A stretch of 64,000 bases of DNA from Bacteroidota bacterium (GTDB lineage: Bacteria > Bacteroidota > Bacteroidia > UKL13-3): contig JAIYAT010000034.1 in the NCBI GenBank assembly GCA_027488905.1, forward strand, positions 62,001 through 126,000, in the 5' to 3' direction. Of the stretch, positions 46,342 through 52,795 are shown one piece after another. The translations under genes and the position numbers were made by a program. The number at the start of each line of letters is the position of its first letter. The first letter of the stretch is position 1. Below the pieces are notes generated by a model that was not told the origin of the DNA, did not search any database, and worked only from the letters and a program-made list of their open reading frames with translations.

Positions 46342-47277
46342 ATGTTCGTTATCAGTCCAGACCCATTTTTAATGCCCACTTATCGCATCGGTGCTTTTGT
46401 TACTGCATCTATTGCCCGCAATGCCAAAATTGATGCGGTTTGGGCAGAAAATGCACAAACCTATTTTAATGAACGATTTGGAGAGAACAATTGGCTTGTT
46501 ACCAAAAACGGCAGAGAAGCCATTGCCTTTGCCATGGAGGAGCTTAACCTTGAGTTAACTCAAAACATAAGTATTCTAACACCTTCTCATAACCTTTATA
46601 TTAGCGGCTGCGTTACCTCTACCCTTTCAAATTACTGCCAATGGGACCGTGAAGCGAGCAAGCAAACTGCTGCCTATTTTGTCAATCATGAGTTTGGATA
46701 TTTATTTAAAGATATGGTTGGATTGGTGAATACAGGCCTTCCAGTGATTGAGGATTGTTGTACTACCTTTTTTAGCCAAGATGACCATCATAAAATTGGC
46801 CTGTATGGCAACTACAGTATATATAGCTTTCCTAAGTTTTTTAGCATTCAAATAGGTGGTCTACTAGTTGGAAAAGGCGTTGGTTCAAACCAAAAACTAT
46901 TGAACAAAGTATCACTAACAAGCGATGAAATAAACTATGTTTTAAAGGTAGTTGGTTTTGAATTAAGAGAAGTAGGTAATATCCTTCAGAAAAGAAGTGA
47001 ATTGCACAAATATGCAAGCGCGGCATTTGAATCATTGGGCTTTAGCCTGAGGTTTCCAAATGAGCCTGGAATTGTTCCTTCACTGCTATTATTAAACAAC
47101 CACCAAATCATCAAAGATTTACCAAGTTTTAAAAACTACTTGTACGCTCAAGGAATTCAAAACAGCGTTTTCTATGGAGAGGATACCTTTTTTATCCCTT
47201 GCCATCACTATTTAAGCGAAGCAGATATTGATTATTTTAAATTTGTAACTGAACAATATATTCAAGTCCAAAATTAA
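46342..47277 (+). CDS. DegT/DnrJ/EryC1-like PLP-fold protein
   Basis: A 311-residue protein with the fold pattern of sugar aminotransferases: NNWLVTKNGREAIAFAMEEL at the N-terminus, LPVIEDCCTTFF with the PLP-contacting Asp, and YGNYSIYSFPKFFSIQIGG, where Lys in FPKFF is the likely Schiff-base residue. It is shorter than typical DegT enzymes (about 370) and lacks a clear C-terminal His/sugar region. It may be a divergent amino-sugar enzyme. It is located between yifB and the fucose locus but not clearly part of either. It contains the 10-mer at 46882. Confidence 0.72.
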   Translation: MFVISPDPFLMPTYRIGAFVTASIARNAKIDAVWAENAQTYFNERFGENNWLVTKNGREAIAFAMEELNLELTQNISILTPSHNLYISGCVTSTLSNYCQWDREASKQTAAYFVNHEFGYLFKDMVGLVNTGLPVIEDCCTTFFSQDDHHKIGLYGNYSIYSFPKFFSIQIGGLLVGKGVGSNQKLLNKVSLTSDEINYVLKVVGFELREVGNILQKRSELHKYASAAFESLGFSLRFPNEPGIVPSLLLLNNHQIIKDLPSFKNYLYAQGIQNSVFYGEDTFFIPCHHYLSEADIDYFKFVTEQYIQVQN

Positions 47278-47291
47278 TTCAAACTTGCCCT

Positions 47292-48596
47292 TTACAATCC
47301 TCCTTTGCCGCTATATAATTGCAAAGGTTTCTCTAAACTTAGTTTTACAACTGTTATATAGGAATCCTGAGCTGTTGACGGTATATCTAGATATACTAAA
47401 CCAGGGACAGAGCTCCAATAAATTTTCCCTACAATTTTAGGTTTAATAGCTTCTGAAGTTCCCACAATTTCTGCCTTTAGTATTTTATTCTTTAATCCCT
47501 TTACATAAATGCTATTTGCATTGCTACTATTCACAAATAAAAATAAACTCATTGAGTCTTTAGATAAGGTACTAGCGCCATAAAAGTGCCCTTGTGACAA
47601 ACCTGCGGAAGTGCCATAAATGGCTTCTGCATGCTTATGGGTCCATTTACCCAATTCTTTGATTAAGTACTTTTGCGCATCTGGAAATGTCCCATCTGCT
47701 TTGGGCGCTAAATCCAATAACAAATTTCCTCCATAGCCAATGCAATCAGCAAAAATGCTGATCAACTCATACGCAGTTTTATAATTGGTATCAATTGAAC
47801 GATAGCCCCAATTGTTGTTGATGGTCATGCATAATTCCCAAGCAGTCTCTGTAGGTTTGCTCACTGGGAAATTTTGCTCGGGTGTAGCGTAATCTCCATA
47901 GCCCTGCAATCGACCATTGATAATGGCATTTGGCTTGGCTTTTAAAATACCTTCCCGAATTTCTTTGGCCTGCCACTCTTGGGCACTGTGCTCCCAATCG
48001 CCATCAAACCACCATAAATCTGGTTGATATGCCGCGCTTAATTCCTGAATCTGACCATGCAAAAACTTGGTGAATTTTTGCCAACGCAAAGGCTCATTTG
48101 AAAGAATATACCTGCTAGAATCTTTTGTAAAACCTGGATAATCTGGATGTGACCAATCAATCAAAGAGTAGTATATACCCACTTTTAACTGCTCATTTTT
48201 TAAGGCTTGCACAAACGGGCTCAGGACATCTCTTTTGGCCGGCGATTTTTTAGGAATGCTCAAGCCATTCATTTTGGTATCATACAAAGCAACTCCATCA
48301 TGGTGTTTGGCTGTAATAACACAATATTTTGCACCACTTTCCTTAATTAATTTCGCCCACTCCGTAGCTTGATAATTCTCAGCCTTAAACCCTTTTATCT
48401 GGCGCATATAGGTATCATATGGCACTTCCTTATTATAAAATGCCCATGATTCGGTTGTGCCCTCAACAGCATAAATTCCCCAATGAATAAATATCCCTAA
48501 TTTGGCATCCTTAAACCATTGCATCTTGGTGCTATCTGTTTGTGCAAGATTCGGTTTGAACCAAATAAATAAAAATACTAAACAAAGTATGCGCAT
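47292..48596 (-). CDS. Alpha-L-fucosidase, GH29 (first copy)
   Basis: A 434-residue secreted glycoside hydrolase (signal peptide to about residue 19, KPNLAQ). GH29 motifs are seen: FKDAKLGIFIHWGIYAV, ITAKHHDGVALYD, and the nucleophile Asp in LWWFDGDWE. A short C-terminal beta domain completes it. It removes fucose from glycans in the periplasm or outside. It diverges from the kinase-fusion gene by 53 bases. It is the left border of the fucose locus. Confidence 0.93.
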   Translation of the reverse strand: MRILCLVFLFIWFKPNLAQTDSTKMQWFKDAKLGIFIHWGIYAVEGTTESWAFYNKEVPYDTYMRQIKGFKAENYQATEWAKLIKESGAKYCVITAKHHDGVALYDTKMNGLSIPKKSPAKRDVLSPFVQALKNEQLKVGIYYSLIDWSHPDYPGFTKDSSRYILSNEPLRWQKFTKFLHGQIQELSAAYQPDLWWFDGDWEHSAQEWQAKEIREGILKAKPNAIINGRLQGYGDYATPEQNFPVSKPTETAWELCMTINNNWGYRSIDTNYKTAYELISIFADCIGYGGNLLLDLAPKADGTFPDAQKYLIKELGKWTHKHAEAIYGTSAGLSQGHFYGASTLSKDSMSLFLFVNSSNANSIYVKGLKNKILKAEIVGTSEAIKPKIVGKIYWSSVPGLVYLDIPSTAQDSYITVVKLSLEKPLQLYSGKGGL

Positions 48597-48649: not shown

Positions 48650-49807
48650 ATGATAGATAACGCAAATAAAAAAGTAATGGTGAGTGGTTGTTTCGACCTA
48701 TTGCACAGTGGCCATGTGGCCTTCTTAAAAAGTGCTGCAAAATATGGAAAACTGCACATTTGCCTTGGCTCAGATCAAACTGTATTTGATTTAAAAAAAC
48801 GAAAAACCATTAACCCCGAGGCAGAAAGAAAATATTTGCTTGAAGCCCTATCTTGCGTGCACAAAGTATATGTGAGCAGCGGAAATGGTTATTTAGATTT
48901 TTTGCCAGAAATGGATATCATAAAGCCAGATATTTTTATTGTAAACCATGATGGACATTCGGCAGATAAAGAAACTTTATGCCAGCAAAAAAGCATTCAA
49001 TACATTGTGCTGCCTAGAACGCCGCATGCTGATTTAGCGGCACGCTCCACTACTGCTTTAAGAGAAGTCAATCAAATTCCCTATCGCATAGATTTAGCAG
49101 GTGGATGGTTAGATCAACCCTTTGTTTCTAAACTTGCCAGCGGACCGGTAATAACCCTTTGTATAGAACCAAACCTAGCATTTGATACGCGCAGTGGCAT
49201 GGCTACCAGCACAAGAAAATGTGCCACCCAATTGTGGCATACTCAAATTCCAAGACCAAATGATGAATTGATTGCCAAGCAACTTTTTGCTTTTGAAAAC
49301 CCACCCGGTACCAAAGAAATAGCAGGCTCGCAAGATAGCATTGGCATCGTTTATTCTGGCTTAACCAAAAGTATATATCAAGCAGATTATTGGCCAAAGC
49401 AAATAGATAATTTACAAGATGAATCTACGCTTCAATTGCTCGAACAACATTTATATTTTTTACCGCTCGGGTCAAGGAAAGACAACTATCATGTATTGGG
49501 TCAAACCAACCTAAACCAAATAGATGCTCAATTGCTCGCTAAGGCTGCCGAAGATTGCTGGAATGCCTTATTGGCAAAAGACCTTAAAGCGATAGGTAAA
49601 TACATGCGAGCCTCGTTTGAAGCTCAAATAAAAATGTTTCCACTCATGGTTGATGGGTCTATTTTGCAACTTATTCAGGTTTATCAAAACCAAGTATTCG
49701 GCTATAAAATTAGTGGTGCTGGAGGTGGTGGATATCTTGTTTTATTAAGTGAAACACCCATAGAAAATGCCTTGAAAATAACTGTTAGAAGATATCCAAT
49801 ATGGTAA
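48650..49807 (+). CDS. Nucleotidyltransferase-GHMP kinase fusion in the fucose locus
   Basis: A 385-residue two-domain protein. Residues 1-140 form a cytidylyltransferase-type Rossmann domain with HSGH (19-22) and STTALRE (133-139, equivalent of the ISSTxxR motif). Residues 143-385 form a complete but short GHMP kinase with PYRIDLAGGWLD (144-155), the phosphate loop SGMATSTRK (182-190), GSQDS (226-230), and SGAGGGGY (355-362). The arrangement parallels Bacteroides Fkp, where a guanylyltransferase precedes a fucokinase, but the first domain is of a different fold. A fucose kinase plus nucleotidyltransferase is the natural inference. The fucP start overlaps its last seven bases. Confidence 0.82.
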   Translation: MIDNANKKVMVSGCFDLLHSGHVAFLKSAAKYGKLHICLGSDQTVFDLKKRKTINPEAERKYLLEALSCVHKVYVSSGNGYLDFLPEMDIIKPDIFIVNHDGHSADKETLCQQKSIQYIVLPRTPHADLAARSTTALREVNQIPYRIDLAGGWLDQPFVSKLASGPVITLCIEPNLAFDTRSGMATSTRKCATQLWHTQIPRPNDELIAKQLFAFENPPGTKEIAGSQDSIGIVYSGLTKSIYQADYWPKQIDNLQDESTLQLLEQHLYFLPLGSRKDNYHVLGQTNLNQIDAQLLAKAAEDCWNALLAKDLKAIGKYMRASFEAQIKMFPLMVDGSILQLIQVYQNQVFGYKISGAGGGGYLVLLSETPIENALKITVRRYPIW

Positions 49808-50982
49808 TAAAAAATAAGCTTCCTCAAGCATTGCCCTTGATGGCAATTTTCAGTTTGTTTTTCTTGTGGGCCTTGGCACATAACTTAAATCCTATTCTCA
49901 TACCACATTTAAAAAATGCTTGTTCCCTCAACGATATGCAATCTGCATTGGTAGATTCTAGCTTTTACCTGGCCTATTTTTTTATGGCTTTGCCAGCAGG
50001 ATTTATCATAAAGAAATATGGATATCAAAGTACCATTGTGTTGGGCTTATTTTTATTTTCAATGGGAGCTTTTGTTTTTTACCCTGCGGCAACGCTAGTT
50101 TCTTATCCGCTCTTTTTGTTAGGCCTGTTTATCATTGCAACTGGCATCACATTCCTAGAAACCGCAGCCAATCCTTATGTTAGCATTTTAGGAGCGCCAG
50201 AAACAGCATCACAGCGACTAAACTTTGCGCAGGCATTTAACGGCCTTGGTGCAACATTAGCTGCCCTTTTTGGAAGTAAATTTATTCTTTCAGATAGCAG
50301 CGGAGATGCGCTAGGTGTGCGCATCCCTTATCTTATCATTGGAATAATCGTGATAATTGTGATGATAATTTTCATTAAAATAAAATTGCCAAAAGCTAAG
50401 CAAGAAAAGGAAACACAAGCATTTTCGTTTAAGCGATTGTTGGGTTATCCTCAGTTGCGTTGGGCCTTGTTTGCTCAATTTTTTTATGTTGGTGCACAAG
50501 TTGGGATTGGTAGTTTTTTTATACGCTATTGTGTGTCTCAAACACAAATGAGCAATGAAAAAGCAGCTTTGTACTTATCAGCTGCATTGTTGCTTTTTAT
50601 GGTAGGAAGATTTTTAGGAGCAGCATTGCTAAAGGTTTTGCAAACCAAAACATTACTTTTTCTGTATAGCATGCTCAATATACTACTGCTTACAGGCGTA
50701 GTTTTAGGAAGAGACTTTTGGGCTATTTATGCTTTAATGGGTACAGAATTTTTCATGTCAATTATGTTTCCTAGCATTTTTGCAGCAGGCATAAAAGGTC
50801 TTGGATCAGACACAAGATTTGGTTCACCGTTAATTATAATGACTATAGTAGGCGGAGCAATTTTGCCTGTAATAATGGGTGCGATTTCAGATGTTGCTAC
50901 CATTAATTTTGCCTTTACAGTTCCTATGTTTTGCTTTGCAATTATTGCTTGGTTTGCTTGGAAATTACCAAAAGAAAATTGA
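49801..50982 (+). CDS. fucP: L-fucose:H+ symporter (FucP-type MFS)
   Basis: A 393-residue transporter with 12 membrane helices. FLETAANPYVSILGAPE and RLNFAQAFNGLGA are typical of the FucP/sugar family. It imports L-fucose released by the flanking fucosidases. Its start codon lies inside the end of the preceding gene (ATGGTAA), and its stop is one base before the mutarotase start. This indicates a tight three-gene operon. Confidence 0.92.
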   Translation: MVIKNKLPQALPLMAIFSLFFLWALAHNLNPILIPHLKNACSLNDMQSALVDSSFYLAYFFMALPAGFIIKKYGYQSTIVLGLFLFSMGAFVFYPAATLVSYPLFLLGLFIIATGITFLETAANPYVSILGAPETASQRLNFAQAFNGLGATLAALFGSKFILSDSSGDALGVRIPYLIIGIIVIIVMIIFIKIKLPKAKQEKETQAFSFKRLLGYPQLRWALFAQFFYVGAQVGIGSFFIRYCVSQTQMSNEKAALYLSAALLLFMVGRFLGAALLKVLQTKTLLFLYSMLNILLLTGVVLGRDFWAIYALMGTEFFMSIMFPSIFAAGIKGLGSDTRFGSPLIIMTIVGGAILPVIMGAISDVATINFAFTVPMFCFAIIAWFAWKLPKEN

Positions 50983-50983
50983 G

Positions 50984-51313
50984 ATGAAAAAATTCGTATT
51001 GGCTTTGGACCTAAAACCTGATCAAGCGCTCATAGCTGCCTATGAGGCCCATCACAAAGCGGTTTGGCCAGAAGTTTTAGCGCAAATTAAAGCAAGTGGT
51101 ATACATCAATGTGATATTTACCGTGTACAAAACCGTTTGGTGATGTTACTTGAAACAAGCGATGATTTTAGTTTCGAGAAAAAGAATTTACAAGACCAAA
51201 GCAACCCTAAAGTGCAAGCATGGGAAGCGTTAATGTGGAACTATCAGCAGGCGTTACCAAGGGCAAAAGATGGTGAAAAATGGATGTTAATGGAACAGAT
51301 TTTTGGGTTATAA
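50984..51313 (+). CDS. L-fucose/L-rhamnose mutarotase (DUF718)
   Basis: A 109-residue dimeric ferredoxin-like protein that interconverts alpha and beta anomers of 6-deoxyhexoses. Family pattern: EAHHKAVWPEVLAQIKASGI with His and Trp, then MWNYQQALPRA. I moved the start to MKKFVLALD at 50984 because an upstream extension would lie inside fucP. It is the last gene of the fucose operon and meets the second fucosidase tail-to-tail. Confidence 0.9.
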   Translation: MKKFVLALDLKPDQALIAAYEAHHKAVWPEVLAQIKASGIHQCDIYRVQNRLVMLLETSDDFSFEKKNLQDQSNPKVQAWEALMWNYQQALPRAKDGEKWMLMEQIFGL

Positions 51314-51319
51314 TAACCT

Positions 51320-52795
51320 TTACTCAATTGCTTCTGCCCTAAAAACCCAAGCATATTTGCAAGGCATTTTATTCTTAAGTGAATTTGGAATATAAATGAT
51401 ACAGCCATTGCCATTTTTCTTCCACTTAAGTTTTTGGCTTGACCCAAGCAAAGTTACAGTGGAGCCCGACTTTGGGCAATGTGTTTCAATCCTAATTTGA
51501 GAAGGTATGGTAGTTTCGTTCTTATCTTGTATGTAGATAAAGTTTGTTCTACCTATGGAATCTTGTGTAAAGCAAACCTGATTTTCTTTAAATGGCGCTA
51601 AGGTGTTTGTGTTGTAGATAGCACTTTCATTTACTTTCATCCATTCTCCATAGGCTTCGAGTAATTGGTAAGCTCCTTGCTGCCATTCCCCTTCGGGAGT
51701 TGGTGCAATATTTAACAATAAATTACCTCCTTTAGAAACAATATCCACCAATAAGTGAATTCCCTCTCTTCCACTCATGTATTTGGCGTTAGGGGTGTGT
51801 GCCCAACCACCTCCAGAAATAATGCAACTTTCCCATGGATAAGGCAATTCCTTAGCAGGAACTCGATTTTCTGGTGTAAGGTAGTTCTGGTTTTTGCCAT
51901 ATACTGCCCTGTCAACAACTATTAGTCCTGGCTGCAGCACTCTTGCCTTTGCCACCAATTCATCCATTCTTATATCTTGGTTTATGCTTCTATGAAAAAC
52001 ATATCCATTTTTACTTTCTTTAAACTGTTCGTCATACCACGATTCAATTTCTGTTTTAGATTTCTTAGAAACCCATCCACCATCCAACCAAAGGATATTT
52101 ACTTTTCCATAATCCTGTAGTAACTCAAAAATTTGTCCATGTGTAAAATCAACATATTTATTCCATTTTTCGGAATTTGACTCTGGCTCATAATTTACAT
52201 TTCTATCTCTTGGAGGGTACATGCTATCCCAATAATTTGGGTGATGCCAATCTGGTTTACTAAAATAAGCACCAGTCCAAAGTCCTTGGTTTCGAAAAGC
52301 ATTAAATACCTCTAAGGTAATGTTCTTTTTAGGGTGACTTGCAAAGGCACAAGATGAATCTGTAATTTTATAATCTGTAAGTTTAGAGTCAAACATAGAG
52401 AATCCATCATGGTGTTTGGTGGTAAAAACCACATAACGCATTCCAGCATTTTTAGCTGCTAAAGCCCATTGTTCTGGGTTGAACCGAACTGGATTAAACG
52501 TAGCCTTTAAGTTTTCATATTCCTTTTTATAAGCGAAATAATTTCCTGGATTTTTACCCATTTTGCGCTCGCACCAGCCGTATTCTTCTGGGCAAATGGA
52601 CCAAGATTCTACAATCCCCCACTGGCTGTAAGGCCCCCAATGCATCAGCAAACCAAATTTTAAACCTTGCCACGCTTTGATTTGAAGCAGTGCTGAAGAA
52701 TCTGTTTCAGGCAAATATTTTTCTTCTTCGCTGTGTTGAGCAAAAGTAGAACATGCAAAAAGAGTAAATAAAATAAGTATCTTAAGCCTTGTCAT
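51320..52795 (-). CDS. Alpha-L-fucosidase, GH29 (second copy)
   Basis: A 491-residue secreted fucosidase (signal peptide to about residue 19, CSTFAQ) with FGLLMHWGPYSQWG, FTTKHHDGFSMFD, and nucleophile region NILWLDGGW. It is only distantly similar to the copy at 47292, so linkage specificity may differ (GH29-A versus -B). It is the right border of the fucose locus, convergent with the mutarotase (6-base gap). Confidence 0.93.
   Translation of the reverse strand: MTRLKILILFTLFACSTFAQHSEEEKYLPETDSSALLQIKAWQGLKFGLLMHWGPYSQWGIVESWSICPEEYGWCERKMGKNPGNYFAYKKEYENLKATFNPVRFNPEQWALAAKNAGMRYVVFTTKHHDGFSMFDSKLTDYKITDSSCAFASHPKKNITLEVFNAFRNQGLWTGAYFSKPDWHHPNYWDSMYPPRDRNVNYEPESNSEKWNKYVDFTHGQIFELLQDYGKVNILWLDGGWVSKKSKTEIESWYDEQFKESKNGYVFHRSINQDIRMDELVAKARVLQPGLIVVDRAVYGKNQNYLTPENRVPAKELPYPWESCIISGGGWAHTPNAKYMSGREGIHLLVDIVSKGGNLLLNIAPTPEGEWQQGAYQLLEAYGEWMKVNESAIYNTNTLAPFKENQVCFTQDSIGRTNFIYIQDKNETTIPSQIRIETHCPKSGSTVTLLGSSQKLKWKKNGNGCIIYIPNSLKNKMPCKYAWVFRAEAIE

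Follow-up and report, generated by a model that had tools for sequence, protein, structure and literature searches.

A compact HxGH nucleotidyltransferase-GHMP kinase fusion in a Bacteroidota fucose operon, a candidate enzyme for fucose activation

The way in which Fkp of Bacteroides fragilis holds fucose has been described for its fucokinase part. According to excerpts of that report (PMC11982464), D762 contacts the C2 hydroxyl of the sugar, D601 and T602 the C3 hydroxyl, and D601 and Q761 the C4 hydroxyl, while W599 stacks on C4-C5-C6 and R592 and D762 are close to O1. The same excerpts give a more than 3000-fold drop in kcat/Km for fucose in W599A and D601A, and an E751 mutant is inactive (PMC11982464). 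In Ralstonia eutropha, fucose-salvage metabolites were found with no known enzyme, and no enzyme resembling that of B. fragilis was matched by BLAST; the authors anticipate the discovery of unknown salvage enzymes (excerpts of PMC8275744, 2021). The family described below is a concrete candidate for such a salvage enzyme in bacteria other than Ralstonia.

The fusion gene, its operon and its family

The stretch of DNA analyzed, referred to as the window, comprises 64,000 nucleotides of contig JAIYAT010000034.1 from a Bacteroidota bacterium. At positions 48650..49807 of its forward strand, a gene with an ATG start encodes P0001, a protein of 385 amino acids that joins an HxGH nucleotidyltransferase to a short GHMP kinase. 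The fusion gene overlaps by 7 bases with fucP (49801..50982, forward strand), which encodes an L-fucose:H+ symporter (TIGR00885, 337.2 bits against a cut-off of 280.4). After a gap of 1 base follows the gene of a RhaM-family mutarotase (50984..51313, forward strand; PF05336, E 9.5e-28), read as an L-fucose mutarotase; its Pfam match was scored on a longer open reading frame, 50879-51310, and the start at 50984 was read separately. This protein missed the rhamnose-mutarotase equivalog model (22 against a cut-off of 99.6). Because of the 7-base overlap and the 1-base gap, they appear to be transcribed together.

Two GH29 alpha-L-fucosidase genes flank the unit on the reverse strand. One (47292..48596; PF01120, E 7.2e-85) is divergent from the fusion gene, from which it is separated by 53 bp, and the other (51320..52795; PF01120, E 1.5e-84) is convergent with the mutarotase gene. 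The N-terminal hydrophobic stretch of both proteins reads, by eye, as a probable signal peptide. The first-pass annotation of this DNA had placed the fusion in an operon with fucP and a mutarotase gene between two fucosidases, and the arrangement is as it described. Positions 46342-47277 encode a protein of 311 amino acids whose sole family match, to aminotransferases (PF01041, 26.4 bits), is weak; its gene is flanked by a yifB-like gene and the first GH29 gene.

In one scan of a genome collection of 84,980 species, the best 80 of 252 confirmed stretches shared 50-92% identity with the protein over nearly its full length. The record titles of these relatives, taken as deposited and mostly those of metagenome-assembled genomes, name Bacteroidetes, Chloroflexi/Anaerolineae, Ignavibacteriae, Calditrichaeota, Armatimonadetes, Treponema, Verrucomicrobiia and others. 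When 78 sequences were aligned, 97 of the 385 columns were at least 97% conserved, and these lie in both domains. Since the fusion is kept in 80 loci with this degree of conservation, it is not a chance join. Among 296 sampled genomes of the phylum, at least four, the source genome included, contained the full fusion (G000, G078, G176 twice and G035). Of the remaining matches listed, one was a divergent relative in G135 and the rest were to the nucleotidyltransferase domain only. Within the source order the distribution was patchy (9 of 64 genomes), and plasmids held no relative of the fusion at E 1e-10. The residue counts below refer to an alignment of 73 sequences, made of the window protein and 72 of the 80 loci; it omits L033 and L088 (near copies), L038, L041, L042, L049, L068 and L092 (no full fusion reading frame picked) and L003-L005. 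The divergent relative of G135 (L006, also L129) shares 34% identity over residues 7-177, adjoins a GH95 gene, and has GGGFGGY in place of the motif III sequence GAGGGGY.

The architecture is real, widespread and apparently undescribed. That no enzyme of this layout had been characterized was part of the first reading, and no description of the fusion was found in a search of open papers, as judged by their titles and the beginnings of their abstracts. The terms 'cytidyl', 'nucleotidyltransferase' and 'Chloroflex' do not occur in the main text of a 2025 article on Fkp evolution (PMC12732313).

Folds and conserved residues of the two halves

The nucleotidyltransferase assignment is based on a PF01467 match over residues 11-139 (E 1.2e-11, 45.4 bits against a cut-off of 21). 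Residues 6-141 (48665..49072, forward strand) superimpose on GCT (1coz) with a Z score of 17.1 and an rmsd of 2.0 over 125 residues, at 28% identity, and other close structures were 3glv, the Fom1 CyTase (5x3d) and HldC (5xf2). The closest solved relatives of this domain are CTP or ATP enzymes. The HSGH motif (residues 19-22; 48704..48715) and the STTALRE sequence (residues 133-139) are present as first annotated, and H19, H22, K49, R60, S133, T135 and R138 are invariant in 73/73 sequences. The segment RxP....L..RSTTALR (residues 123-138; 49016..49063) is a family-specific version of the second signature of the HxGH superfamily, with R123, P125, S133, T135, L137 and R138 invariant in all 73. 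It is about 5 residues longer than in 25 aligned HldE-like domains, and the family has VNxDG where these 25 stand-alone domains have KGxD[YW]. Both features would fit an altered base or acceptor, without telling which, and the conserved nucleotidyltransferase positions of the 73-member alignment do not separate GTP, CTP and ATP.

The best NCBIfam match of the window protein was the adenylyltransferase domain of HldE (TIGR02199), far under its cut-off (58.2 against 181.5). The protein also missed the cut-offs of the models for glycerol-3-phosphate cytidylyltransferase (TIGR01518, 40.8 against 165.4), HddA (NF049969, 16.4 against 600) and Fkp (NF009948, 42.3 against 721), and PF07959 (fucose pyrophosphorylase) was unmatched at E 0.01.

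The kinase domain spans residues 139-382 (49064..49795, forward strand). Its GHMP fold is clear in the AlphaFold model, which was built with 73 aligned members (pLDDT 89.3, pTM 0.70) and is weak at the domain junction, residues 121-140 (block means 70 and 55), and near motif II (77 and 72). The top structural match of residues 139-382 was the WcbL heptokinase (4usk; Z 22.3, rmsd 3.0, 239 residues), and the fucokinase part of Fkp (9iip) gave Z 20.8 and rmsd 2.9 over 229 residues at 24% identity; the gap between the two Z scores is too small to tell the sugars apart. Searched against the PDB, a profile of the 73 members matched Fkp fucokinase best among the GHMP enzymes (9iip, E 1.4e-14), with HddA next (3k85, E 4.4e-6), and WcbL was absent among the 16 matches listed. 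As for Pfam, PF08544 (GHMP_kinases_C) stayed below its cut-off on the window protein (18.9 against 21) and PF00288 (GHMP_kinases_N) was not matched at E 0.01. The Pfam GHMP models fall short of this short form, and the fold comparison reaches the GHMP family. The Pfam match of the first half and the fold of the second together support the fusion of an HxGH nucleotidyltransferase to a GHMP kinase that the first reading had proposed.

The claim that all three GHMP motifs are intact holds for two of them. Motif I, PYRIDLAGGWLDQP (residues 144-157; 49079..49120), and motif III, GYKISGAGGGGY (residues 351-362; 49700..49735), are canonical. Motif II is found only in a diverged form, RSGMATSTR (residues 181-189; 49190..49216), which aligns with GSGLGTSS of Fkp; the family consensus is RSGMASST and the mean of this block in the model is 72. 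In addition, much of the sequence that separates motifs I and II in Fkp is absent: the motif I Trp and motif II are about 30 residues apart in the family and nearly 120 apart in Fkp. The same shortening is common to the paralogue of G176, to a stand-alone relative (L087) and to the divergent L006 relative. The stretch missing from the fusion kinase may, we presume, include the usual adenine pocket, and for this reason the binding of ATP by the fusion kinase is unexplained. In two loci, L087 (11693-12475) and L088 (11657-12475), this type of short GHMP kinase is encoded on its own, without the nucleotidyltransferase, downstream of a GME-like gene; a full fusion is present in the same locus.

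Five of the six residues of the Fkp fucose pocket are identical in the fusion. In the alignment, Fkp R592, W599 and D601 correspond to R146, W153 and D155 of motif I, and Q761 and D762 to Q228 and D229 of a GSQD sequence (residues 226-229; 49325..49336), in which D229 is the proposed catalytic base. The exception is T602, which is replaced by Gln (Q156) in all 73 sequences; none of the six positions varies within the family. Fkp E751 aligns with E216, a position occupied by Glu in 48/73 sequences and Asp in 25/73. As controls we used the heptokinase-like proteins of 11 of 12 loci, the twelfth being the Fkp of G014; none of them is over the HddA cut-off. Their reading frames were chosen by a pattern containing GGG[ST]D, and all 11 loci had such a frame, of the same length as the matched frame. 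The position of W599 is Gly in 11/11 of these controls and Trp in 2/2 Fkp proteins.

These residues bear on the possibility that the protein is a rearranged HldE, that is, a heptose-1-phosphate kinase/adenylyltransferase. HldE is the nearest NCBIfam relative of its nucleotidyltransferase domain, its kinase half is structurally closest to WcbL, and one locus (L103:1222-1800) has a GmhA-like gene, 53% identical to one located beside a heptokinase, at a distance of about 4 kb, with the GMD and GDP-fucose synthase genes between it and the fusion. However, the protein scores far under the cut-offs for the HldE domain (58.2/181.5) and for HddA (16.4/600), the Trp that its pocket shares with fucokinase is missing from 11/11 heptokinase-like proteins, and the source genome encodes a separate HldE-like domain elsewhere. 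With queries from four heptokinase loci and at E 1e-10, GmhA-like genes were found in 1 and HddA-/HddC-like genes in 0 of the 84 loci searched. A heptose is a highly improbable substrate.

Fucose and nucleotide-sugar genes around the fusion

In the source order, fucP is over its cut-off in 8/64 genomes, all of which have the fusion, each within 60 bases of it. The ninth fusion-positive genome has a fucP fragment beside the fusion at a contig end (G363:C46, 238.8 bits). Among the 55 fusion-negative genomes of the order, several of them incomplete assemblies, none has fucP over the cut-off; in four (G393, G394, G399 and G402) the matches, of 247-257 bits, are just under 280.4, and fucose import without the fusion may exist there. 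The order fusion, fucP, RhaM-like gene (the last recognized by its start) recurs in G346 and in G369, which belongs to another genus. Since the three genes travel together, they are regarded as one cassette and not as independent events. The conserved pocket and the occurrence of fucP in 8/9 fusion-positive genomes of the order agree with the link to fucose and the Fkp-like role suggested in the first reading.

Neighboring genes were then counted within 8 kb in 84 loci (the 80 kept and four more); these are raw counts, in which many contigs are short and some loci are near copies. FucP was found in 20, RhaM in 15, GH29 in 14 and FucI in 4, and of the GDP-sugar genes, GME-like genes in 7, GMD in 4 and GDP-fucose synthase in 4. 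Any of FucP, RhaM, GH29 and FucI was present in 26/84, so homologs of the fusion are not consistently outside fucose loci; a GDP-sugar gene was present in 10/84, both kinds in 5 and either in 31. A further 7/84 had only a FucA-like or KduI gene, and 46/84 had none of the genes sought. The neighbors in these 46 loci are heterogeneous, the commonest family being chromate transporters (6 members) and the rest scattered, as judged from the first 25 of 120 families. That scan took reading frames of 120-699 amino acids, up to two on each side within 1.5 kb, in loci with a fusion reading frame picked, and covered 108/112 of them, leaving out two of L099, one of L102 and one of L105. One neighbor in this group, in L085, scores best as GalE (174.5 against 262.3). 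In five loci labeled Tannerella (L047, L062, L079, L080 and L091), the fusion lies between KduI and an RfbA-like NTP_transferase gene, a setting for which neither fucose nor GDP accounts.

The same neighborhoods could belong to a protein with one inactive half that serves fucose catabolism or its regulation and not biosynthesis. FucI is nearby in 4/84 loci and over its cut-off in 20/54 fusion-positive genomes (four from the phylum sample and 50 picked from the 80 loci), which indicates that some hosts also degrade fucose, and motif II is diverged. Against this, the catalytic residues expected in both halves are invariant, one fusion (L112) is inside an apparent polysaccharide synthesis locus, and PF07881, the fucose isomerase domain, has no match in the source genome. 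We find a catabolic or regulatory role quite improbable. With GT11 as the only fucosyltransferase family searched as a sink, the source genome gave no match, and 8/54 fusion-positive genomes were over the cut-off. Mutual exclusion of Fkp and the fusion was considered as well and rejected: PF07959 is over the cut-off in 0/54 fusion-positive genomes (with 13 weak matches), but Fkp is so rare in the phylum (3/296 genomes) that its absence gives no support.

The nucleotide was approached through the GDP-sugar genes. Next to the fusion, GMD exceeds its cut-off in L003/L112 and L051, and it also does so in the L103 and G035 genomes at the positions concerned. GDP-fucose synthase is over its cut-off of 500 in L103 and below it in L005 (492) and L051 (432). 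In L051 the fusion is followed by GMD, after a gap of 5 bases, and by an overlapping GDP-fucose synthase gene; in L112 the row is GME, fusion, GMD, GDP-fucose synthase; and in L103 the GMD and GDP-fucose synthase genes are divergent from a fusion-fucP-RhaM unit. The L112 stretch looks like a polysaccharide synthesis locus, with a putative sugar transferase, flippase and glycosyltransferase read from their N-termini. An RfbA-like, dTDP-type gene is near the fusion in 5/84 loci. GMD was also tried as a genome-wide marker (46/54 fusion-positive genomes against 189/296), and the modest excess between unmatched sets was too weak to be used.

The source genome encodes GMD (588 bits, over its cut-off) with an adjoining GDP-fucose synthase match (464 against a cut-off of 500), and genes for GT1-type glycosyltransferases and for a bacterial sugar transferase surround this pair. 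Because a de novo GMD/GDP-fucose synthase pair is present, GDP-fucose should be the activated fucose that the cell already uses; a salvage product with a different nucleotide would require a transferase of its own.

These observations go against the CDP- or ADP-linked product suggested as a possibility in the first-pass annotation; taken as a whole, its interpretation was partly supported. In that proposal the enzyme and the sugar would be the same, and CDP-fucose or ADP-fucose would feed a transferase of its own. The nucleotidyltransferase domain indeed resembles CTP/ATP enzymes (GCT, 1coz, at 28% identity; HldC, 5xf2; Fom1, 5x3d), and its best NCBIfam match, the HldE adenylyltransferase domain at 58.2 against 181.5, is of the same kind. 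To our knowledge, the HxGH superfamily uses ATP and CTP, not GTP, and we know of no GTP-dependent member that acts on a sugar-1-phosphate. On the other hand, the nucleotide-sugar genes beside the fusion are mostly of the GDP type among those sought, a search whose CDP- and ADP-sugar part was confined to heptose genes. The second signature differs from that of 25 aligned HldE-like proteins, the names CDP-fucose and ADP-fucose, in the spellings tried, were not found in the literature searched, and the source genome carries its own de novo GDP-fucose pair. Argued from this context, the nucleotide is more probably GDP, and we consider a CDP- or ADP-linked product unlikely.

The GME-like genes point to another sugar. 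The three GME-like neighbors that were compared with the PDB gave 266-322 bits to Arabidopsis GME (2c59). If the kinase and nucleotidyltransferase acted on L-galactose and not on fucose, a fusion beside GME would feed salvaged L-galactose into GDP-mannose. In favor of this, GME-like genes are near the family in 7/84 loci, L115 among them, and Fkp accepts L-galactose, with a Km about 100 times higher (excerpts of PMC11982464). However, the partners of the fusion in the window are fucP and two GH29 fucosidases, and in the six loci that resemble the window most (L032-L037, some of them on short contigs) no GME-like gene was found within 8 kb. For the window protein, L-galactose is a rather improbable substrate; it may take the place of fucose in some family members encoded next to GDP-mannose 3,5-epimerase. 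The row at positions 6265-13589 of L115 (G176) comprises a LacI-type regulator (by its N-terminus), a GME-like gene (322 bits to 2c59), a 40%-identical fusion paralogue, RhaM, an SSF symporter and GH28. Such a set of genes could convert L-galactose to GDP-mannose by way of GDP-L-galactose.

Proposed function and comparison with known systems

The domain make-up, the fold, the conserved fucokinase pocket and the gene context were demonstrated computationally. Fucose is well supported as the substrate, and a kinase step and activation to a nucleotide sugar are each likely; we infer the substrate, the order of the steps and GTP as the donor from these data. With moderate confidence, we propose that the protein is a bifunctional fucose-activating enzyme in which the kinase acts before the HxGH domain, most likely with GTP, to give GDP-beta-L-fucose. 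By their family, the flanking GH29 fucosidases, secreted or periplasmic, would release fucose, and FucP would import it. The RhaM-type mutarotase, a family match that does not name the sugar, would speed anomer exchange and so supply the right anomer. Judging from the conserved pocket, the C-terminal GHMP kinase would phosphorylate C1 to give beta-L-fucose-1-phosphate, with D229 as the base and W153, D155 and Q228 holding the sugar. The N-terminal HxGH domain would then join fucose-1-phosphate to a nucleoside triphosphate, for which gene context suggests GTP, yielding GDP-beta-L-fucose, and this product would feed the same glycosyltransferases as de novo GDP-fucose.

More tentatively, and with somewhat less confidence than doubt, the family can be seen as a second, non-orthologous bacterial fucose-salvage enzyme, built of a GTP-using HxGH domain and a minimal GHMP kinase and distributed across Bacteroidota, Chloroflexota, Ignavibacteria and others, which some hosts would couple to GME to convert salvaged L-galactose to GDP-mannose. 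The fusion could serve as a test case for whether GTP can be used by an HxGH domain, and an enzyme of 385 residues could be a simpler GDP-fucose tool than Fkp, with its 949 residues.

Like the fusion, Fkp of B. fragilis has the nucleotidyltransferase first and the GHMP kinase second (excerpts of PMC11982464; PDB 9iip, 9iit, 5yys). The two also have in common the pocket residues R592, W599, D601, Q761 and D762 (Fkp numbering) and, as we read the fusion, fucose salvage. They differ in that the 949-residue Fkp has a PF07959 half with a beta-helix, replaced in the fusion by an HxGH domain of another superfamily, in T602, which is Gln in the fusion, and in the long stretch between motifs I and II, which is largely missing from the fusion. 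HldE/RfaE and HldC share with it an HxGH domain with an STT motif acting on a sugar-1-phosphate, and HldE also combines a kinase and a nucleotidyltransferase in one chain. The HldE kinase, which we take to be of the PfkB type, presumably comes first, unlike that of the fusion; the second signature and the VNxDG stretch set the fusion apart from HldE and HldC, and it is far under the equivalog cut-off. GCT/TagD (1coz, 2b7l) has the fold of the N-terminal domain, at 28% identity and with no kinase domain, and its signature, which we take to be RTEGISTT, is remodeled in the fusion to RxP....L..RSTTALR. Finally, HddA and WcbL (3k85, 4usk) have the GHMP fold of the fusion kinase, whereas 11/11 heptokinase-like relatives have GGG[ST]D where the fusion family has GGWLD, and the stretch that separates their motifs I and II is of full length.
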